64,000 bases of DNA, taken from assembly GCF_007859935.1 (NCBI RefSeq), contig NZ_SJPO01000011.1, forward strand, positions 124,001 to 188,000, given 5' to 3'. The translations under genes and the position numbers were made by a program. Below the pieces are notes generated by a model. That model saw only the letters and a program-made list of their open reading frames with translations. It had not been told where the DNA came from and did no database searches. This DNA is from Posidoniimonas polymericola (GTDB lineage: Bacteria; Planctomycetota; Planctomycetia; Pirellulales; Lacipirellulaceae). Of this stretch, positions 17,961 through 28,520 are shown piece after piece. Within the stretch, counting starts at the first letter, position 1, and each line of letters opens with the position of its first letter.

Positions 17961-18359
17961 CTACGAAGCCGCGTGGATCTCGAGCTGCGCGTCGAGCAGC
18001 ACGGCGTCGGGGCCGGCGCCTTCGAGGGTGAGGCTCAGCTCGTTGCTCGGCTCGAGCCGCGGCGTCAGGTTCGCCACGCCGCTCTCCAGCGTGATCTCCG
18101 CTCCGTTCAGCCGCGCCGCCGCCAAGCCGTGCGGCGTGGCGAGCCGCAGCAGCACCTGGTCGCCGGCGGCCAGCCCGGTCGGCTGGTTGAAGCGCCGGGA
18201 GAGGGTCGCCCGGCCGGAGTCCGCGGGCAGGGCGTCGCCCCAGGTGCAGGGGAGCTTCACGCGCAGCTCGGCCCCGTCGGCCTCGGCCTGCCACGGGCCG
18301 CGCAGGCGGATCACGTGCGGCGCGGCGCCCCGATCGGCGTGCGGCGCGTCGCCGCTCAT
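17961..18359 (-). CDS. Small beta-sandwich (GH2 sugar-binding-like) protein
   Basis: 132 residues, no signal peptide. The pattern of a GPWQAEADG strand, LPCTWGDALP, a TLSRRFNQP strand and LNGAEI resembles the jelly-roll sugar-binding domain found at the N-terminus of GH2 beta-galactosidases, here as a stand-alone module. That similarity is from pattern only. Its ATG overlaps the stop of the upstream pseudopilin-like gene (ATGA, 18356-18359), so the two are coupled, which suggests a role with that surface protein instead of sugar metabolism. It is 217 bases upstream of argG with the long palindrome in between. Confidence 0.6.
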   Translation of the reverse strand: MSGDAPHADRGAAPHVIRLRGPWQAEADGAELRVKLPCTWGDALPADSGRATLSRRFNQPTGLAAGDQVLLRLATPHGLAAARLNGAEITLESGVANLTPRLEPSNELSLTLEGAGPDAVLLDAQLEIHAAS

Positions 18360-20386
18360 TTGGGCATGAACGTCTGCTTGACGTTCACTTCGCGGATCTG
18401 GCGGCTGTCGAGCTCGTACGCCCGGAGCGTCACCTGAATGCCCCGCAGCGCGGTGTCGTAGGGCGGCGCGGTCTCCCGCTCGCCCGGGTCGTCGACGCCG
18501 TTGACGCCATCGTCGTCGAAGCCGTTGGAGGCCGGGTCGATCACGTTGTCGCCGTCATCGTCCTTCCCGTTGTTCTCGTACGAGGTCGACCAGGTGTCGT
18601 AGGTTCGGTAGGGCTGGAAGGCGTAGCCGTTGACCGTCACCGTGGGCCAACCAAGCTCGCTTTTCGGTTGGGTGTACCCGGCGAATGTCGAACTTCCCAG
18701 CAAGTTCGTAACGCTGGGATTGGTGACGGGGGGTAGTGCCCCGAGAGCAGTGTTGCGGGCTGCAAAGGCACCGTGCAAGCCGTAATAACCAAGATCGACG
18801 TAGGCGCCACGTCCGGCTATTGGCTGGTAAGTGACCCCCGAACCCGGATTGTTTAGCCGCTCGCGTAAGATCATTCCCCAGCCGGAGTCGCCCGGTCCGA
18901 TTACCTCACCGGGGTAGGCAACCGACTGACTGGTGTCATTCAACGGCTGTTCCGCCAGCAGCGGTGCTTCAGGGTCGTAGACCTTGATGTCGAAGGCTAG
19001 CATGTTGCTCAGCACAACATCCTCGCCACGGCGGTCGCCCGACAGCGGCACCATGCCGTTGGTGAACATCACCACCTGGCCGTCCTCATTGACGATGGCT
19101 CGAGTGGTCGGCTTGAGGGCGCTAGAGTCGTCGACGTACACAAACGGCCGCGACGAGAGCCACTTACCGCGGTTTTGCAGCCTGTAGGTGCGGACCGTGC
19201 CAGATCCGTCATCGCGGGTCCGGCCTTCGACCATCTTGTCGATCGCAGCAGCGCTAAAATCCTCGTTGCGCTCTAACTTGCGGGACACGTCGAACGCGGG
19301 GCGAACCTGGATCGTTCCCGACAGACCGCGACCGATTCCGACGTAGTGGTAGGGGAACCGCCGCTGCCCTTGCGCCGTGCCAGGCGAGCCGTAGGGGATG
19401 TGCTGGTGGTCAAAGCGGTTCTCTCGCTTCGTAAGATCGCCGAGCGTGTTCGCCTTGATCACCCACCGGCCACCGTCGAGCAGCGGGTCCCATTCGAGCC
19501 TTACCGAGATGTCGTATTGTTCCTGGAACGCAGTGACCGCTGCGATTGCTTGGGCAACTTCATCCAAGTCAACGTTGAGAACTCGGAGCACACCGGGACC
19601 GACGTTTTGGCCATTGACCAAAATCCCATAGTCCAATTGCGGCGCAATCAACATCGTCCTGCGGTAGACGGTGCGGAAGCCGGGTTCGCCGAAATAGAAT
19701 GTGCGAGCGTCGCTCGGCTCAACCGGGTTCTCAACAGCAAACCACACGACCTCTGCGAGCGGTGATTCAAACTCTTTGGCTCCCCAGCTATCGAACCCAC
19801 TGCCATCAGTCGGGACGTCCGTAGGCACGCGTCCGACAAACGGCTTGTCGTCGTTCCGCACGGTCAGCGACAGCACGTCGTCCCAGTCGCCGAGGCCGCC
19901 GCCGTCGGTGACGTACTGGCTATCCAGATTGACGGCGCTTCCGGGAAGCCTCGCCAGGTTCGTACCCGGGAGCTGCGATACCGCTAGGTCGATCTGCAGG
20001 CCGTTGCTGCTGTCGGTCGGGCTGTTGCCGCCAACAAAGTCGACGATCCCGTTGTTGTCGATGTCCTGCAGCCAGATGCTTGGGGCAAAGTCCGACTGCG
20101 GCCCTTCGACGATCTCGATGTATCCGTGATTCGACTCGGGGCGGGTCCACGGCAGCGCGGGGCAGGTGTGGTTGGCGAGGTCGTCCTGCAGCAGGGCGCG
20201 GGCCTGGCGGAGTCGGGTCGACATCTCGATGCCGGCGCGGCGGTCGGCCACGCTCGCCGAGACGTTCGCGAACACCGCGATCACCGCGGCCATCATCAGC
20301 AGCGTGATCGACATCGCCACCAGCATCTCGACCAGCGTGAAACCACGCTGGGGCCGAGCGTGGGCCGGGCGGCGGTGAGAATACAT
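18356..20386 (-). CDS. Large prepilin-like protein with type IV N-methylation motif
   Basis: The N-terminus has a short basic leader then GFTLVEMLVAMSITLLMMAA, a textbook prepilin peptidase site (cleavage after the Gly, Glu at +5) and a hydrophobic stalk, as in PilW/GspJ-type minor pseudopilins. Unlike those (about 200-300 residues) the product has 676 residues. Acidic Asp/Asn-rich loops such as DIDNNGIVDF (about 105) and DDDGDNVIDPASNGFDDDGV (about 615-634) look like EF-hand or thrombospondin-type calcium sites. The start ATG 20386 is fixed by the leader. A promoter at 20513-20541 fits. Its function is probably a large surface or secretion-pseudopilus component; no other pilus gene is near. 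Confidence 0.8.
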   Translation of the reverse strand: MYSHRRPAHARPQRGFTLVEMLVAMSITLLMMAAVIAVFANVSASVADRRAGIEMSTRLRQARALLQDDLANHTCPALPWTRPESNHGYIEIVEGPQSDFAPSIWLQDIDNNGIVDFVGGNSPTDSSNGLQIDLAVSQLPGTNLARLPGSAVNLDSQYVTDGGGLGDWDDVLSLTVRNDDKPFVGRVPTDVPTDGSGFDSWGAKEFESPLAEVVWFAVENPVEPSDARTFYFGEPGFRTVYRRTMLIAPQLDYGILVNGQNVGPGVLRVLNVDLDEVAQAIAAVTAFQEQYDISVRLEWDPLLDGGRWVIKANTLGDLTKRENRFDHQHIPYGSPGTAQGQRRFPYHYVGIGRGLSGTIQVRPAFDVSRKLERNEDFSAAAIDKMVEGRTRDDGSGTVRTYRLQNRGKWLSSRPFVYVDDSSALKPTTRAIVNEDGQVVMFTNGMVPLSGDRRGEDVVLSNMLAFDIKVYDPEAPLLAEQPLNDTSQSVAYPGEVIGPGDSGWGMILRERLNNPGSGVTYQPIAGRGAYVDLGYYGLHGAFAARNTALGALPPVTNPSVTNLLGSSTFAGYTQPKSELGWPTVTVNGYAFQPYRTYDTWSTSYENNGKDDDGDNVIDPASNGFDDDGVNGVDDPGERETAPPYDTALRGIQVTLRAYELDSRQIREVNVKQTFMPK

Positions 20387-20797
20387 AGCAGGCACGACAC
20401 TCCGATGCGGCAGCTCGCCGCCGAAAAGAGATTTCACGATCCAATCCCCCCGTTCCGGTAGGGCCTCTCTGGTGGGGTGGCATGAGAGCCCCTGACGCCA
20501 CCCCAGCCCTTCATTGCACCGCGCCGTAAAGTCTGTGTCAAGAAAAGGTTGTGGCGCCGGTCGGCGGACCTCCGCCAGTTGCGCAGGGCTGGCCAAGGGC
20601 TCCTGATAGGTAAAGGTTGCCACCGCGGCGGGCCGGATCCCCCTTTTTTGAGGCGGCCGCCCTTGGACCACGTGCCTTCCCGGGGGAATAATGAGGGCGA
20701 TTCCGGTTGCCCGCCCCGCCCCCTCTGCAGCAAGTCCTTGCCCGCCCGCCCGCCAGTCTGCCCCCCAGCCCGTTCGGCCTCCCGCCCGCCAGCCGTG
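20387..20797. other. Divergent intergenic region, 411 bases
   Basis: Separates the minus-strand pseudopilin from the plus-strand TPR operon. It holds one clear sigma70-like promoter on the minus strand (20513-20541). I see no equally good promoter on the plus strand and no RNA gene. Confidence 0.5.
20513..20541 (-). promoter_or_regulatory. Sigma70-like promoter of the pseudopilin gene
   Basis: Read on the minus strand: TTGACA (perfect -35), 17-base spacer, TGCAAT (-10). It would give an untranslated leader of about 120 bases before the start at 20386. Confidence 0.55.
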
Positions 20798-23700
20798 GTG
20801 AGCAAGTGGCTGTCGGCGCTGCTGCTGGCCACGATTGGGTTCTCGGCTCTGCCGGCGGCCGCGCAGCAACCAACGCCCGCCCCCGAGGCGGCCCGCGCGT
20901 ACGCCGCGGCGGCCGCGCTGCAGGACCGCGGGCTGCACGACCTGGCGCGCAAGGACTGGCAGGCGCTGCTCAAGAGCTACCCGACCGACCCGCTCGCGCC
21001 CCGGGTCCGCTACAACCTGGGCGTCTGCCGGTTCCAGCAGTCGCAGTTCGCCGCCGCGGCCGACGCCTTTGCCGAGGCTGCCAAGACCGCCCAGGAGGAC
21101 TCGGTCGCCGAGGCCGCGTGGTCGAACCTCGGCCTAGCACGGTTCAACCAGGCGTCGTCGCTCGCGGCGACCAAGCCCAGCCAGGCCGCGCCGGTCTACC
21201 GTCAGGCGGTCGCCGCCTTCGAGCAGCTGCTCGCCAAGTTCCCCGCCAGCGGCCAGGCCGGCGGTGCCCAGTACTACCGCGGCGAGTCGCTCGCCGCCCT
21301 CGGCCAGCACGAGCAGGCGGCCCAGGCGTATCGCGCCGCGCTCGAGAACCAAGCGGCCTCGCCGCTGCACACCGCCGCCCGGGTGGCGCTGGCTTCATCA
21401 GAGTTGGAGCTCGGCCAGACCAACCAGGCCGAGGCGACGCTCAATACGCTCATTGCTGCGGGCCCAATCGGCCAGACCGCCGGCGAGGCCTACACCCTCC
21501 GCGGCGAGTCCCGGCTGGCGGGCGGCAACGCGGTTGGCGCCGCCGAGGACTTCGCCCAAGCCGCCGCCGCCGAGCAGTACGACGCGGCCGACTACGCGCT
21601 CGAGCGGCAGGCGTTCGCGCTCTACTCGGCCGGCCAGCACGCCGCCGCCGCAACCTCCTACCGGCAGCTCGGCCAGCGGTTCCCGCGGTCGCCGCTCGCC
21701 GGCGGCGCCAATCTGGCGGCCGGCAAGTGCCTGTTGCTGGCCCAGCAATACGACGAGGCGGCCACGCTGCTCGGTTCACTCTGGCGGGCAGACCCGTCGG
21801 CCGCCAACGCCGAAGCGGCCCACTGGCTCACGCAGACTCTCACCGCCGCCGGCAGGCCGGCCGACGCGATCGGCCCGGCCCGGCAGGCGCTGGCGACTAG
21901 CCCCGACCCGCAGTGGGCCAACCCGATCAAGGTCACCCTGGCCGACGCGTTGTCCGAGTCCGACAGCGGCCGCGGCGAGGCGCTCGACCTCTACCGCCAG
22001 CTCGCCCGCAGCGCGGGCGGCGAGTCCGCCGAGCGGGCCGCCTACCTCGCCGCCCACACGGCGCTGCAGTTGAAGCGGTTCGACGAGGCCCAGCGGTTCG
22101 CCCAGCAGTTCTTGCGGCAGCGCCCCAACAGCCAATTCAGCATCGAGGCCCGGCTGATCGCCGCCGAGGCCGCCGCCCAGCTCAAGCAGCCGCAGCAGGC
22201 CGCCGACCAGTACCGGGCCTTGATCGCCGCCGCCGCCGACGATCCGCGCGTGGGCGAGTGGGTGCTGAGGGACGCGGGCCTGCTCCGCGAGCAGCAGAAT
22301 TGGGCCGAGGTCGCCAGCCTGCTTAGCGACTACCAGCAGGCTATCCCCGCCGAGCGGAAGGCCGACGCATTAGCGATGCTGTCCGAAGCCCGCAGCCAGT
22401 CGGGCGACGCGGCGGCGAGCATCGCGGCCCTGACGGACCTGATCGAACAGCGACCCGACGCCAACCGTCTTGCGCAGGCGCTCTACCAACGCGGCGAGCA
22501 GCAGACTACCCGCGGCGACCTCAACGCCGCCAATCAAGACTTCACCCGCATCGCCCGCGAGTTCCCCCAGAGCGACCTCGCCCCGTACGCCCTATACGGC
22601 CTGGCCAACAACCAGCTGCAGTCGGGCGACAAGCAGGCCGGCCGGCAGTCGCTGCAGACGCTTGTCGACCGTTACGGGGATGGCCCCATCGGCGAGGCCC
22701 GCTACACGCTCGCCGGGCTGCTGCACGAACAGCAGCAGGACGCCGCGGCGCTCGACGTGCTTGACGGGGCCAAGGCGCCCGCCGCCGAGCTCAGCTACCT
22801 GCGGGCGCTCTGCCTGATTGGCGCGGGCCGGACCGACGACGCCCGGCGTGAGCTGCAGGCCTTCCTGCAGCAGCACCCGCAGCACGAGCGGGCCGACCAG
22901 GTTGGCTACGAGCTGGCGTGGCTCGAGCGGAAGGCGGACCCGGCTGGCGCGGCCAAGCAGTTCGCGCGGCTTGCCGCTGACTACCCTCGCAGCCCGCTCG
23001 CGGCCGAGGCGCTGCTCCGCGCGGGCGAGTTGCTGTACCAAGCGGGCGACAAGCAGGCCGCCGCCGGCCCGCTCGAGAAGGTCGCCCAGCGGGGTGACGC
23101 CGCCGCCGGCTTCCGCGCCCAGGCGTCGCACCTCTTGGGCTGGATTGCGTTTGGCGCCGATCAGCCCGAGGCCGCGGCGATGGCGTTCAACAATCAGTTG
23201 CGGGCGGAGCCGACCGGCGAGCTCGCCGCCGCCGGCGCCGCGATGCAGGGCGAGTCGCTGTTTGCCCTCGGCCGCTACGAGCCCGCGCTGGCCGCCTACA
23301 CGCAGGCCGAGCAGCTCGGCCCCAAGGACCCGCGGCTCGCCGCGGCGGCCTGGCTGCACGCCGGGCAGGCGGCAGGCCAGCTCGGCCGCTGGAAGGAGAG
23401 CCTGCAGTGGCTCGAGCGTGCCGGTCGGGCAAGCCAGGCAAAGCTGGAGGGCGACAAGATCCGCTACGAGCGCGGCTGGGCCCTGGTGAACCTTGATCGA
23501 CCGCAAGAAGCGCAGCCGATCTTCGAATCGCTGCTTGAATCACAAGACGGCGTGCTAGCGGCCCGCTCACAGTTTATGCTGGGGGAGATGCAGTTCGCGG
23601 CCAAGCAGTACGACGCAGCGGTCCGCACGTTCTTCCGGGTCGCCTACGGGCACGGCGGCAAGGACGCGCCCGAGGCGTACCACGCGTGGCAGGCAGAGTC

Positions 23701-23845
23701 GCTGTTCGAGGCCGCCCGCTGCCTCGAGGCGCTGGGCCGCCGCGAGCCAGCCAACAAGCTTTACCTGGAGCTGCTCGAGCGGTTCCCCGATTCGGCCAAG
23801 GCGCGGCACGCGCGGGCCAAGCTGCAGCCGGGGGCCACCCGCTAA
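20798..23845 (+). CDS. Secreted tetratricopeptide-repeat protein
   Basis: A 1015-residue protein with a signal peptide (cleavage likely after LPAAA near residue 22) and TPR-like helical pairs over almost its whole length, many with the YLALG/AxxxF pattern of periplasmic BamD/CpoB-type repeats (for example ARYNLGVC and YELAWLERKA). It is Ala-, Gln- and Leu-rich. The start GTG 20798 places the signal peptide at the N-terminus; the upstream open frame to 20549 is Pro/Arg-rich and spurious. It is the first gene of an operon with ExbB, ExbD and a TonB-like protein, which suggests a periplasmic scaffold for that machine, comparable in place to CpoB in Tol-Pal. No enzymatic motif. Confidence 0.88.
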   Translation: MSKWLSALLLATIGFSALPAAAQQPTPAPEAARAYAAAAALQDRGLHDLARKDWQALLKSYPTDPLAPRVRYNLGVCRFQQSQFAAAADAFAEAAKTAQEDSVAEAAWSNLGLARFNQASSLAATKPSQAAPVYRQAVAAFEQLLAKFPASGQAGGAQYYRGESLAALGQHEQAAQAYRAALENQAASPLHTAARVALASSELELGQTNQAEATLNTLIAAGPIGQTAGEAYTLRGESRLAGGNAVGAAEDFAQAAAAEQYDAADYALERQAFALYSAGQHAAAATSYRQLGQRFPRSPLAGGANLAAGKCLLLAQQYDEAATLLGSLWRADPSAANAEAAHWLTQTLTAAGRPADAIGPARQALATSPDPQWANPIKVTLADALSESDSGRGEALDLYRQLARSAGGESAERAAYLAAHTALQLKRFDEAQRFAQQFLRQRPNSQFSIEARLIAAEAAAQLKQPQQAADQYRALIAAAADDPRVGEWVLRDAGLLREQQNWAEVASLLSDYQQAIPAERKADALAMLSEARSQSGDAAASIAALTDLIEQRPDANRLAQALYQRGEQQTTRGDLNAANQDFTRIAREFPQSDLAPYALYGLANNQLQSGDKQAGRQSLQTLVDRYGDGPIGEARYTLAGLLHEQQQDAAALDVLDGAKAPAAELSYLRALCLIGAGRTDDARRELQAFLQQHPQHERADQVGYELAWLERKADPAGAAKQFARLAADYPRSPLAAEALLRAGELLYQAGDKQAAAGPLEKVAQRGDAAAGFRAQASHLLGWIAFGADQPEAAAMAFNNQLRAEPTGELAAAGAAMQGESLFALGRYEPALAAYTQAEQLGPKDPRLAAAAWLHAGQAAGQLGRWKESLQWLERAGRASQAKLEGDKIRYERGWALVNLDRPQEAQPIFESLLESQDGVLAARSQFMLGEMQFAAKQYDAAVRTFFRVAYGHGGKDAPEAYHAWQAESLFEAARCLEALGRREPANKLYLELLERFPDSAKARHARAKLQPGATR

Positions 23846-23873
23846 CAACGGGCCGCTGACAACGCGCCGCTAG

Positions 23874-24890
23874 ATGACGACCAACCACAGCACGCCAGGC
23901 AATCCGAACGAGACCAATCCAATGCGACTAGCCCGCCGCCTGGCGACGACTTTCTGTGTTACGCTCGTACTCGCAGGCACGGCCTGGGGCCAAGGGCCGG
24001 CGCTGGCGCCGGCCCTCGGCAATGACCCGGGCGACGACCCAGACGCGCTGGCCGAGGCGGCGCTCGCGCCGCCGCCCCCGGTCGAGGCGCCCGACGCGAT
24101 GCCCGACTCGGCCGAGGCGATCCTCGAGCTGTTCCTCAAGGGGGGCTGGCTGATGGCCCCCATTGTGCTGATGTCGGTGGTCGTGCTGGCGGTGGCGTGC
24201 GAGCGGATGCTCGGGCTCCGCCGCGGCCGCATCCGCCCCCGCAAACTGGTCGACACGCTCCGCCGGCAGATCGACGACGGCGACCTCGACCCGCAGCGGG
24301 CCTACAACGCCTGCCGCCGCAGCCGCAGCGCGCTGTCGCGGGTGGTGATCGCCGCGCTGTCGAAGATCGGCCGCCCCCACGCCGAGGTCGAAGCGGCCGC
24401 CGCCGACGCGCTGCAGAACGAGGCCGACCGCATGTACGGCAATGTCCGCACGCTGAACCTGGCCGCCGCGGTGACGCCGCTGATGGGGCTGCTCGGCACT
24501 GTGTGGGGCATGATCGAGTCGTTCTTCGTCACGGCGAACGCCGCCGAGGGGACCGACAAGGCGACCGCCCTGGCCGAGGGCATCTACGTCGCGCTGATGA
24601 CCACCTTCGCCGGCCTGGCCGTGGCGATCCCCGCCGCGGTGCTGGCCCACTACTTCGAGGGACGCATCCTCCGCTCGCTCCGCCGGGTCGAGAGCCTGAT
24701 CACCGTGCTGCTCCCCCGCATCGAGGCGCTCGAGGGCCGCGGCCGGCTCGACCTGCGCCAGCTCGAGAGCAACTACCAGCACGACCGCACGGGCCGCAGG
24801 CAGCCGGCGCCACAGGTCCCGCCCACTCCACCGGCGGGCCCGCCGACGCACCACCTGTCGCAGGCCCACGAAACGAGCGGGAGGGCGTAG
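23874..24890 (+). CDS. exbB: MotA/TolQ/ExbB-type proton channel protein
   Basis: Inner-membrane channel subunit that uses the proton gradient to drive a TonB/TolA-like partner. The 338-residue product has a cleavable signal sequence (from MRLARR, residues 17-39), an acidic low-complexity periplasmic stretch, TM1 near 88-108, a cytoplasmic loop, TM2 with TPLMGLLGTVWGMIESFF near 201-218 and TM3 with LAVAIPAAVLAHYF near 246-259. The Thr/Gly-rich TM2 motif is diagnostic. The signal peptide and extended N-terminus are typical of planctomycete ExbB homologues rather than E. coli ExbB. Start could also be ATG 23922, immediately before the signal peptide. ExbD follows after three bases. Confidence 0.93.
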   Translation: MTTNHSTPGNPNETNPMRLARRLATTFCVTLVLAGTAWGQGPALAPALGNDPGDDPDALAEAALAPPPPVEAPDAMPDSAEAILELFLKGGWLMAPIVLMSVVVLAVACERMLGLRRGRIRPRKLVDTLRRQIDDGDLDPQRAYNACRRSRSALSRVVIAALSKIGRPHAEVEAAAADALQNEADRMYGNVRTLNLAAAVTPLMGLLGTVWGMIESFFVTANAAEGTDKATALAEGIYVALMTTFAGLAVAIPAAVLAHYFEGRILRSLRRVESLITVLLPRIEALEGRGRLDLRQLESNYQHDRTGRRQPAPQVPPTPPAGPPTHHLSQAHETSGRA

Positions 24891-24893
24891 ACG

Positions 24894-25301
24894 ATGGCCG
24901 TCAAACTCAACAAGGGCCTGTCTGCCGGCGCGCTGAGCATGACGCCGCTGATCGATGTGGTGTTCCTGCTGCTGATCTTCTTCCTCGTGGCGAGCCGCTT
25001 CGAGCAGGAAGAACGGCAGATGGACGTCACCCTGCCGCAGGCCGCCGAGGCCGCCCCGACGGTGTTCCCCGGCCAGGAGGTCTTCGTCACGGTCACGCCC
25101 GACGGAACCTACTACATCGCTGGCGAGAAGCTCAGCGCAAACATGCTCCGCACCCGGCTCAAGGCGCTCTACCAGGCAAACCCCGGCAAGCAGAAGGTGA
25201 CCATCCGGGCCGACTCGCAGTCGAACTCCGGCGCGCTGGTCACCGTGCTCGACGCCTGCAACCAGGCCAACATCCGCAACTACAGCATCGCGACCGAGTA
25301 A
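24894..25301 (+). CDS. exbD: ExbD/TolR biopolymer transport protein
   Basis: Single-pass partner of ExbB. The 135-residue protein has a cytoplasmic N-terminus, then SMTPLIDVVFLLLIFFLVAS with the proton-relay Asp at residue 21, and a periplasmic domain ending with the TIRADSQSNSG and VLDACNQANI segments of the family. The essential Asp is intact, so the motor should be functional. Spacing of three bases to exbB shows tight coupling; a 166-base gap with repeats follows before the TonB-like gene. Confidence 0.95.
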   Translation: MAVKLNKGLSAGALSMTPLIDVVFLLLIFFLVASRFEQEERQMDVTLPQAAEAAPTVFPGQEVFVTVTPDGTYYIAGEKLSANMLRTRLKALYQANPGKQKVTIRADSQSNSGALVTVLDACNQANIRNYSIATE

Positions 25302-25305
25302 AAGA

Positions 25306-25437
25306 ATTCCCTCCCCCGCTGGGGGAGGGCTAGGGTGGGGGCGCCCCGCTTGCGAGTTTGCCCTTACGGGGCGACGCGGCAGGCAGGCCGCAGCACCACT
25401 TCACCCCCACCCCGACCCTCCCCCAGCTGGGGAGGGT
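25306..25437. repeat. Pair of inverted GC-rich repeats (copies B and C)
   Basis: Copy B (25306-25341) has the CCCTCCCCC-GC-GGGGGAGGG core followed by CTAGGGTGGGG; copy C (25404-25437) is nearly its reverse complement, so the pair could fold into one long imperfect stem. Both match copy A at 15.3 kb. They lie inside an operon, between exbD and the TonB-like gene. Confidence 0.6.
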
Positions 25438-25467
25438 GTAAGTTCGACCAACCGAGCAGGAAGCCGT

Positions 25468-28116
25468 TTGACCCCCGACCCCGCCATCCCCCGACCCGCC
25501 GTCGACGAACGGGCGTTGACTGTCAACGCCGCCCTCGCGTTGTGGGCGGGCGTCGCTGCGGGTGGGATTGTGGCGCTCGGCGGCTTCGACGACCCCGACC
25601 CTTGGCGGAACGGCTACTACCGCCTGGCGACCCTCGGGCTGACCGCGCTAGCGCTCGCTATTGCCTTCTTGTCGTCGCCCGGGTTCTCGGCCAAGCGGCT
25701 GCAGCTCGGGGTGGTGGCGAGCCTGATCGCGCACACGGCGATTGTCGCCGGGCTGGCGCTGGCCGACCTGCGGATGCCGCAGCTGATGGCCGACGCCGAC
25801 GCGCCGCCGGTCGAGGAAGTGCAGGAGGAGCAGCCGCCGGAGATGGTGATCATTGAGCGGCAGCAGCTCGACGAGGTCCCGGACTTCGAGCGGCCGGTCG
25901 CGACCTCCGCCCCGCAGAGCCAGGCCGAGCTGATCGAGCCCGAGCGGCAGGCGCCCAAGCTGGCCGAGACCATGCTGCAGCCCACCGCCGCCCCGCTAGC
26001 CGCGCCGCCTGCGCCCGACGCGCCGATTCTGGAACGGCCGCAGACCACGCTCGCCCAGGCCGCCATCGAGTCGGGCCGGCGGAGCCGCAACATCGCCGCG
26101 TCGGCCAGCGTCGCGCCGCAGGCGGCCGAGTTCGACGCCGGCACGCAGCCCGCGCCGTCGCCGCTGGAAGAGCCCACGCCGAGCCCGGCGCCGACGCCGA
26201 TGTTGGCCCGCGCGGCCGCGCCGCTGCGGGCGGCGATCACCCCGATCGAGGCCCCGCGTCCGACGCTCGCGCCGCCGACTTCGCCGCAGAGCACGCCGAT
26301 CACGTCGGCCCCGCGGATGGCGGTCAACCAGCCCGCCACGCCGCAGGTCGGCGCGAGCCAGCCGGCGCCCCGACTCAGGCCCCGCACACTGGCGCAGCTT
26401 GGCCCGTCGCCGATGGAGCCGATCACGCCGCTGCCGAGCGAACCGAACACCCCGCAGGACGCTCCGCGGATGGCGCCACTAACGCCGCCGGCGGTCACCC
26501 AGCAGCGGACCGCGCCGTCGCTGGCGATGGCCTCGCCGACGCTCGCGCCGGTCGCCCCGCGGCTGGCCGACATGGCGCCGATCGCCCCCGCGACGCCGGC
26601 CGCCGCACCGGATCGTCTTGCGATGCGCACCTCGGGCGACGCGCCGCGGATCCTGGCCGACGCCCGGCCGCGGCCCCGGGGCGGCGCCGCGCCGCTCGCC
26701 GCCCTCGGCTCTGCCGGCCGGGCGCTCGAGGCGCCCAACCTCAACCGCGGCGCCGGCCAGGGCCAGCCCGGCGCGCCGACCGAGATCGCCGCCGCCGCCG
26801 ACCGCGGCGGGCTGGGGGTCAAGCCGGCCGAGCGGCCAGGCCTCAGCAAGGCGGTCGCGTCGCGCGACGCCACGGCCAACCTCTCACCGGGCCGGTTCCG
26901 CAACCAGGCCGCCGGCGGGTCGCCCTCGGTCGCCGGCGACGCCCGCGCGCCGACCGCCGCGTTCAGCAGCCGCGGCCAACGCGTCGAGCAGCTCGAGTCG
27001 GGCAGCAGCGGCTCGCCGTCGCCCCGCACGGAGGCCGCCATCGAGCTCGGCCTGAAATTCCTGGCCGGTATCCAGGAGCCCGACGGCGGCTGGGCGTTCG
27101 ACTCGCTCGGCGGCGCCGACGTCCGCGCCGCCGAGGTGCCGCAGATCAAGGCCGACGCGGCCGCCACCGGCTTGGCGCTGCTGTCGTTCCTCGGCGCCGG
27201 CTACGACCACATCGACGGCAAGCACCAGCAGACCGTCAAACGCGGCATCGACGCGCTGATTGCCGACCAGGGCGACTCCGGCGTGCTGTTCGCCGAGGAC
27301 TCGGACCCCAACGCGTGGGAGGTCGCCCGGTTCTACAGCCACGGCATCGCGACCATTGCCCTGTGCGAGGCGTACGGCATGACCGGCGACCCACGGCTCC
27401 GCCGCCCGGCGCAGCGGGCGATCGACTACATCGTCGAGACGCAGGTCGAGAGCCTCGGCGGCTGGCGGTACACGCCCGGCTTCAATTCTGATCTGTCGGT
27501 GACCGGCTGGATGCTGATGGCGCTGCGGAGCGGTGAGTTGGCCGGGCTGGAGGTCCCCAGCCGCACCTACGCCGGCGTGCGGCGGTTCCTCGAAACCTGC
27601 CGCGAAAGCGCCGGCAACCAGGCCCGCTTCTGCTACAACCCGACCGCGCCGGCCAACGACCCCCGCACCAGCCACGGCCGCAACCCGGGCACGGTGATGA
27701 CCTCGGTCGGCCTGTTGATGCAGCTCTACCTGGGTGAGGGGCGCGAGAGCCGCCGCATGCAGCTCGGCGCCGACCACCTGGCCGAGCACCTGCCGACCCT
27801 CGGCGACTCGATGACGCCGGCCCGCACCAGCACGCTCGGCAACCCACTGCGGGACACGTACTACTGGTACTACGGCACGCAGGTAATGTTCCACATGGGC
27901 GGCACGCACTGGGATCGGTGGAACGAGGCGCTGCACCCGCTGCTGGTCGAGAGCCAGACCAAGAGCGGCCAACTCGCTGGCAGCTGGAACCCAATCGCGC
28001 CGGTCCCCGACAAGTGGCGCCACCTCGGCGGCCGCCTGTACGTCACGACGCTCAACCTGCTGAGCCTCGAGGTGTACTACCGGCACCTTCCGCTGTACGA
28101 GATGACTGGGCGGTAG
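25468..28116 (+). CDS. TonB-like membrane protein fused to a terpenoid-cyclase-fold (alpha/alpha toroid) domain
   Basis: 882 residues. Three hydrophobic segments (about 18-41, 52-75, 80-103); the third carries Ser85, His89 and Leu96 at exactly the spacing of TonB Ser16, His20 and Leu27, the motif that couples TonB to ExbB/ExbD. A Pro/Ala-rich, TonB-like linker of about 400 residues follows, and then a domain at about 520-882 with the QEPDGGW and LGGWRYTPG motifs and repeated helical pairs of squalene cyclase/protein prenyltransferase folds. The catalytic DxDD of squalene-hopene cyclase is not evident, so this is probably not a cyclase. Start is TTG 25468 after AGGA. It sits downstream of exbB-exbD. 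The coupling to ExbBD is inferred. Confidence 0.8.
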   Translation: MTPDPAIPRPAVDERALTVNAALALWAGVAAGGIVALGGFDDPDPWRNGYYRLATLGLTALALAIAFLSSPGFSAKRLQLGVVASLIAHTAIVAGLALADLRMPQLMADADAPPVEEVQEEQPPEMVIIERQQLDEVPDFERPVATSAPQSQAELIEPERQAPKLAETMLQPTAAPLAAPPAPDAPILERPQTTLAQAAIESGRRSRNIAASASVAPQAAEFDAGTQPAPSPLEEPTPSPAPTPMLARAAAPLRAAITPIEAPRPTLAPPTSPQSTPITSAPRMAVNQPATPQVGASQPAPRLRPRTLAQLGPSPMEPITPLPSEPNTPQDAPRMAPLTPPAVTQQRTAPSLAMASPTLAPVAPRLADMAPIAPATPAAAPDRLAMRTSGDAPRILADARPRPRGGAAPLAALGSAGRALEAPNLNRGAGQGQPGAPTEIAAAADRGGLGVKPAERPGLSKAVASRDATANLSPGRFRNQAAGGSPSVAGDARAPTAAFSSRGQRVEQLESGSSGSPSPRTEAAIELGLKFLAGIQEPDGGWAFDSLGGADVRAAEVPQIKADAAATGLALLSFLGAGYDHIDGKHQQTVKRGIDALIADQGDSGVLFAEDSDPNAWEVARFYSHGIATIALCEAYGMTGDPRLRRPAQRAIDYIVETQVESLGGWRYTPGFNSDLSVTGWMLMALRSGELAGLEVPSRTYAGVRRFLETCRESAGNQARFCYNPTAPANDPRTSHGRNPGTVMTSVGLLMQLYLGEGRESRRMQLGADHLAEHLPTLGDSMTPARTSTLGNPLRDTYYWYYGTQVMFHMGGTHWDRWNEALHPLLVESQTKSGQLAGSWNPIAPVPDKWRHLGGRLYVTTLNLLSLEVYYRHLPLYEMTGR

Positions 28117-28133
28117 CAAACTGCCGACATGAC

Positions 28134-28520
28134 ATGAGCGAGTCAGGCGTTGATCGCGTAATCAAGTTCGCCCCGCAAATGATGTTGGTTTCGGGAGGCT
28201 GGCTCGCGCTGGTTGTCTGGACAGACCTGCCAGGAGTGTTGACCGCGTTCCAAGCAGTCTTTCTCGCCGTCACGGCGGTGTCACTTAGCGAATATCGTGC
28301 GGAGCGTGGGCTCTGGATGCTCGCCATGCTGTATTTTGCGATTAGCGTAGCGCTCTACGCCATCTTTTTGGTGCAGGGCATCCTCGACGAAATACGCGGC
28401 GTGAGAGCGCCGGTTTCCTTGGCCATCGACGTAGCTCTGATAACCATTTTGCTCGGAGGACAGGTTGGATTTCTCTGGCGCGTCGCGGTGATCAACCGCC
28501 GCCTCTCAAGAGCAGACTAA
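28134..28520 (+). CDS. Small four-helix membrane protein of unknown function
   Basis: Not recognised. 128 residues with about four hydrophobic segments (near 17-30, 33-48, 60-80, 95-115) and a basic C-terminus. It begins 17 bases after the TonB-like gene and may be the last gene of that operon. Its base composition is visibly less GC-rich than the neighbouring genes, and the following 600 bases share that shift, so it could be a recent arrival. A longer open frame back to 27918 is a shadow of the preceding gene. Confidence 0.65.
   Translation: MSESGVDRVIKFAPQMMLVSGGWLALVVWTDLPGVLTAFQAVFLAVTAVSLSEYRAERGLWMLAMLYFAISVALYAIFLVQGILDEIRGVRAPVSLAIDVALITILLGGQVGFLWRVAVINRRLSRAD

Follow-up and report, generated by a model that had tools for sequence, protein, structure and literature searches.

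A toroid-tipped TonB-like protein encoded beside TPR, ExbB and ExbD in Posidoniimonas polymericola: a probable proton-driven envelope machine

Introduction

To our knowledge, only a few outputs of the 5:2 proton-driven motors are understood. The Planctomycetota have an unusual envelope architecture, and a locus of Posidoniimonas polymericola (Pirellulales, Lacipirellulaceae) raises the question of what such a motor may drive in this phylum. The locus lies in a stretch of 64,000 nucleotides (assembly GCF_007859935.1, contig NZ_SJPO01000011.1, positions 124,001 to 188,000 of the forward strand), hereafter called the window, and a prediction made from the sequence alone had read it as a force-transducing envelope machine with a novel output domain. 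The observation behind this prediction is confirmed here and its interpretation as a machine is supported, the operon being well supported as anatomy; from this anatomy we infer its function, including force transduction itself. With a probability of about three in four, the four genes encode a Ton/Tol-type proton-driven envelope machine whose force transducer bears a toroid at its tip.

Organization of the Locus

The gene set of the original prediction, namely a TPR protein, ExbB, ExbD and an 882-residue protein, was retrieved with correct coordinates and frames and agreeing Pfam matches (Table 1). The span proposed for it (20798-28520) ends too far downstream, since it includes a short ORF (28137-28520). 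This ORF was rejected as an operon member because the gene families that repeatedly neighbour the operon do not include it. The TPR gene has a GTG start in a frame open from 20549, and the end of its signal peptide, read directly from the sequence, is ALPAAA-QQ. The TTG start of the 882-residue protein is preceded by an AGGA-like ribosome-binding site (agcaggaagccgt-TTG), and an orthologue (L031) is collinear with it from the same start region.

Table 1. Features of the operon, with positions in the window.
Feature	Position	Strand	Evidence
TPR protein (periplasmic, ~1015 aa)	20798..23845	+	Pfam TPR_16 1.7e-42; NCBIfam tol_pal_ybgF 1.4e-75; signal peptide; many TPR repeats
ExbB/TolQ-type motor subunit	23874..24890	+	Pfam MotA_ExbB 4.8e-25; signal-peptide-like N-terminal extension
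ExbD/TolR-type motor subunit	24894..25301	+	Pfam ExbD 1.4e-29; proton-relay Asp21
Toroid-tipped TonB-like protein (putative transducer), 882 aa	25468..28116	+	ORF; TTG start
Transmembrane helices 1 (residues 14-37) and 2 (49-69) of the 882-aa protein	25507..25674	+	AlphaFold; orthologue hydropathy
Transmembrane helix 3 (residues 73-111), with Ser85 (25720-25722), His89 (25732-25734) and Leu96	25684..25800	+	AlphaFold, alignment, motif statistics
Pro/Ala-rich periplasmic linker of the 882-aa protein (residues 112-517; includes candidate motor box)	25801..27018	+	Composition
Candidate motor box / D-box-like strand (~residues 122-129, QPPEMVII)	25831..25854	+	Pro124 conservation; beta-hexamer count
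Alpha/alpha toroid, putative output domain (residues 518-882)	27019..28113	+	AlphaFold, structure and profile matches, no DxDD

Between exbD and the gene of the 882-residue protein (the arm gene) lies a 33-nt inverted repeat (window 25309-25436, 88% complementary, 62-nt spacer) that looks like a dispersed intergenic repeat. Upstream, a divergent gene (window 18356-20938, minus strand) encodes a protein that starts like a type IV pilin (RGFTLVEMLVAMSITLLMM). Of 50 related loci, 12 have upstream of the operon a member of one divergent gene family, to which this gene may or may not belong.

Conservation of the Operon

The original prediction had offered linkage to exbB/exbD in related genomes as a test, and this linkage is kept. 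Among 80 further loci taken from named records, ExbD adjoins the arm gene in 57 of the 62 relatives with enough DNA, and of the 49 for which 5 kb or more of upstream DNA is available, 40 have the whole set of TPR, ExbB and ExbD. The direct long-linker orthologues present the order TPR-ExbB-ExbD-toroid, which is also found complete in other classes of the phylum (L204, L205), together with ExbD-toroid operons carrying the same anchor motif (L192, L194, L207, L209). Other gene families recur in 12 of 50 neighbourhoods at most, which argues that the machine would consist of four genes, TPR, ExbB, ExbD and the arm.

Some loci depart from this arrangement. In Blastopirellula marina DSM 3645 (L123), ExbD alone is kept next to the arm gene. 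There and in L139, L147, L151 and L167, exbD is adjacent and neither exbB nor the TPR gene was detected just upstream; the missing genes may lie elsewhere in the genome. One orthologue (L044, genome G028) has no exbB or exbD within about 10 kb upstream.

The Anchor Helix and the Motor

Modelling of the N-terminal residues 1-175 with 30 orthologues (AlphaFold, pLDDT 80) gave helices at 14-37, 49-69 and 73-111, and Ser85, His89 and Leu96 were found where they had been predicted, in the third membrane segment; the fourth position of the SHLS motif is Asp100 instead of Ser. Across the 175 aligned N-terminal residues of the 30 orthologues, just two columns, His89 and Pro124, are conserved at 90% or more. 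Of 121 distinct family proteins having a membrane segment, 87 carry S-x3-H, 19 replace its Ser by A, G, C or T, six present S-x3-N, with Asn for His, and nine have neither the motif nor these variants. As a control, 804 membrane segments from other ORFs of the same loci were examined, and S-x3-H occurs in three of them. The Ser-His spacing, whose loss in orthologues the original prediction had named as evidence against itself, is kept phylum-wide. The exceptions with Asn fit this scheme, since Asn is reported to substitute fully for TonB His20 (Swayne and Postle, 2011, by its title as given in PMC8928145). Searches of the PDB with a 28-residue anchor profile, which matched no chain, TonB included, and with the single anchor sequence, which gave no match either, used queries too short to be informative.

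The same figures bear on the view that planctomycete envelope proteins in general use the S-x3-H helix as a membrane anchor, its linkage to exbBD being incidental. Many toroid paralogues that have the motif are not encoded near exbB/exbD, as this view would have it, yet only 3/804 control segments of the same loci carry it, His89 is near invariant and the linkage holds in 57/62 cases and across classes, so that we consider such a general anchor very improbable.

Of the motor residues, the proton-relay Asp21 of ExbD, described as intact in the original prediction, is indeed present in the window protein and is kept in 58 of 59 orthologues. Among 48 ExbB orthologues, the pore residues Thr209 and Thr243/244 are conserved at 100%, Ser101 of TM1 at 98% and Pro253 at 96%; the equivalent of ExbB Trp38 is absent, with V or L at that position. 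In the cryo-EM structures from E. coli, TonB Ser16/His20 and TolA Ser18/His22 touch ExbB Ser34/Trp38 or the TolQ equivalents (PMC12215075); of this receiving pair, the ExbB orthologues keep the TM1 Ser (Ser101) and lack the Trp. As the TonB residues do not contact the Asp of ExbD in those structures (PMC12215075), a meeting of His89 with ExbD Asp21, proposed as a check on a predicted complex, is the wrong criterion.

Beyond the membrane, the linker (counted over residues 107-517, 411 residues) contains 17% Pro and 20% Ala, a count that bears out its description as Pro-rich and TonB-like; its length is highly variable among orthologues, whose ORFs range from 789 to 2282 aa. By a crude beta-propensity test, the best beta-hexamer falls at +18 to +60 from the His in 16 of 64 cases versus 4.2 expected, an approximately fourfold excess. 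The TonB D-box occupies the position shortly after the membrane where this beta-prone stretch is enriched in toroid arms (PMC10907165), and the stretch at about residues 122-129 of the window protein is no more than suggestive of a D-box-like strand.

The Toroid Tip

The C-terminal domain had been assigned to the terpenoid-cyclase fold, and the toroid is confirmed. AlphaFold models it with a pLDDT of 90.7, its best structural match is squalene-hopene cyclase 2sqc (Z 27.7, 298 residues, rmsd 3.0), and a family profile of the last 365 residues matches the same enzyme with an E-value of 1.3e-17; a weak match to SQHop_cyclase_C (4e-06) is the sole Pfam hit of the 882-residue protein. A PDB search with the full 882-residue protein gave no match. 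A whole-protein scan of genome contigs gave none either, probably because the linker gave most patterns; the alignment of the toroid succeeded. The domain shares with squalene-hopene cyclase the alpha/alpha toroid fold and the QxxDGGW repeats, whereas the window protein has a single toroid, no DxDD and a membrane anchor beside a motor. The catalytic DxDD, the presence of which the original prediction had said would speak against it, is absent from the window toroid and from 131 of 134 relatives, and in the three others it falls at unrelated positions of the domain. A squalene or oxidosqualene cyclase was therefore rejected on the missing DxDD, in spite of the matching fold.

Conserved residues of the toroid cluster where the inner helices have their N-termini (3.18 versus 2.62 bits overall) and would line a pocket. 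As these N-termini keep near-invariant residues, the toroid probably binds something in its cavity, and this conservation could reflect catalysis rather than grip. The toroid might then be a membrane-anchored periplasmic enzyme (a polysaccharide lyase or hydrolase, an epimerase-like protein or a DxDD-less cyclase) that the motor only positions or gates. Such an enzyme would account for the polar and aromatic positions that hardly vary at these N-termini (His108, Asp158, Ser160, Tyr281/284/285, Arg339), the pectate lyase family PF09492 is weakly matched by 21 of 30 toroids, and the structural neighbours include sugar epimerases and glycosidases with an alpha/alpha6 fold. However, the residues could not be matched to any known catalytic set, the sequence comes closest to that of squalene cyclases and yet lacks their DxDD, and an enzyme needs neither the S-x3-H anchor, nor the Pro-rich arm, nor the motor operon; we hold this explanation to be unlikely.

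Family Classes and Distribution

The original prediction saw one operon, and the arm-plus-toroid architecture proves to be a large paralogous family. Toroid relatives occur in all 39 order-level genomes, usually several per genome, and a phylum-wide sample of 149 Planctomycetota genomes has them in 136; among 20 distant loci, most anchored members have the same anchor. The family falls into at least three groups. Class A, to which the window protein belongs, has three membrane helices, two of them extra helices ahead of the anchor helix. In a variant (L046, L047), an N-terminal TM and a PD40 (TolB-like) propeller, recognized by Pfam in L047 and by eye in L046, are followed by two further helices and the toroid; L182, L184 and L185 were placed with this variant by length and topology, and all five have an extra N-terminal region before S/A-x3-H helices and toroid. 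Class B, with two helices, is a second operon class with the same gene order, in which ExbB-ExbD are adjacent and a long signal-peptide gene lies upstream in 8 of 11 cases; the window genome carries one such operon (L072, on contig C12). A single helix, in many cases with PxWLxSxxxH, marks class C, whose members mostly lack an adjacent motor gene. Anchor-less soluble toroids exist too.

This distribution also bears on the idea that the 882-residue protein replaces TonB and energizes TonB-dependent outer-membrane receptors. The window genome does encode Plug-domain proteins, with neither TonB_C nor TonB_2 found across it by Pfam, but in the 39 genomes the presence of class A tracks neither Plug (9/16 vs 9/23) nor TonB_C (6/16 vs 6/23), whereas Plug and TonB_C strongly track each other (p 0.0003), and toroids are found in 39 of 39 genomes against 18 of 39 for Plug. 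As no co-occurrence appears among these genomes, a TonB substitute for such receptors was rejected as the main role, and we give this idea hardly any credence. The Plug-domain proteins of the window genome (G000) lie at C10:217359, C1:816802 and C2:658702, at least one having a receptor barrel, and Plug occurs without TonB_C in 7 of the 39 genomes.

Comparison with Known Systems

As in the Ton system (TonB-ExbB-ExbD), the locus combines ExbB/ExbD with pore Thr and Asp, a Ser-x3-His anchor and a Pro-rich linker. It differs by the toroid tip, the TPR partner, the three membrane helices, the missing ExbB Trp38 equivalent and the lack of a TonB C-terminal domain: the 882-residue protein has no TonB_C or TonB_2 by Pfam and, being without TonB_C, is not a TonB. 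Similarly, the motor, the Ser-x3-His anchor and an associated TPR protein (CpoB/YbgF-like) recall the Tol-Pal system (TolA-TolQ-TolR), whereas no TolA C-terminal domain is found by Pfam and some relatives of the arm contain the PD40 propeller. No tolB- or pal-like genes recur among the operon neighbours. A defence system was rejected for want of any PADLOC match.

The closest published kind is that of the vWA-tipped force transducers, proposed in 2025 in a TPR-tolQ-tolR-tolR-vWA operon that is also present in Planctomycetes (Williams-Jones et al., 2025; PMC12204202). According to the portions of that account consulted, both share the SHLS membrane helix, a Pro-rich or disordered linker, a non-TonB globular tip and the logic of a TPR gene with a tolQ/tolR-like motor operon, and they differ in the tip (vWA versus alpha/alpha toroid), in the tolR-like gene pair versus one ExbD and in the three membrane helices of class A. 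The 882-residue protein itself was rejected as a vWA transducer, since Pfam, AlphaFold and the structural match all give a toroid and not a vWA fold. The same portions make no mention of toroids. The "novel output domain" of the original prediction would hold for the toroid and not for the principle of a non-TonB tip on an SHLS arm, already proposed for vWA (PMC12204202). Three motor operons of the window genome (L093, L094 and L091, on contigs C6, C11 and C10) contain a tandem ExbD pair and resemble the layout reported for the vWA transducers; one of them is preceded by a toroid/HEAT protein.

Our literature search found no report joining such toroids to ExbBD, although this domain combination may be listed in a 2020 survey of new Planctomycetes protein architectures, which, as cited in PMC8567305, covers biopolymer-transport complexes.

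A Possible Mechanism and Its Implications

In the envelope machine that we favour, a probable ExbB pentamer and an ExbD dimer would form the motor, and helix 3 of the 882-residue protein would dock on the exterior of ExbB via Ser85/His89. The homology of motor and anchor leads us to expect that ExbB is the docking site of the arm and that proton flow through ExbBD drives it. The periplasmic ExbD dimer may catch a short strand just past the membrane. The direct partner would most likely be the operon's own TPR protein, as cargo or as a bridge to peptidoglycan or outer membrane; it is the best candidate because it alone accompanies motor and arm. Counting against this machine are the missing equivalent of ExbB Trp38, Asp100 in place of the last Ser of SHLS, the extra helices of class A, the unlinked paralogues, the orthologue L044 with its upstream DNA free of exbB and exbD, the weakness of the D-box-like signal and the chance that the pocket is catalytic.

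More tentatively, the family could represent phylum-wide, multi-copy force transducers of the Planctomycetota, parallel to and independent of Ton/Tol, in which a former terpene-cyclase toroid has become a force-loaded gripping pocket and several arms per genome share a pool of ExbBD and pull different envelope ligands. The toroid is suggested as a tip of a third type, next to vWA and the domain of TonB/TolA, and His89, Asp21 and the pocket residues are defined for mutation. Many proteins matching squalene-cyclase profiles may thereby be re-read as likely mechanical, and not metabolic, parts.
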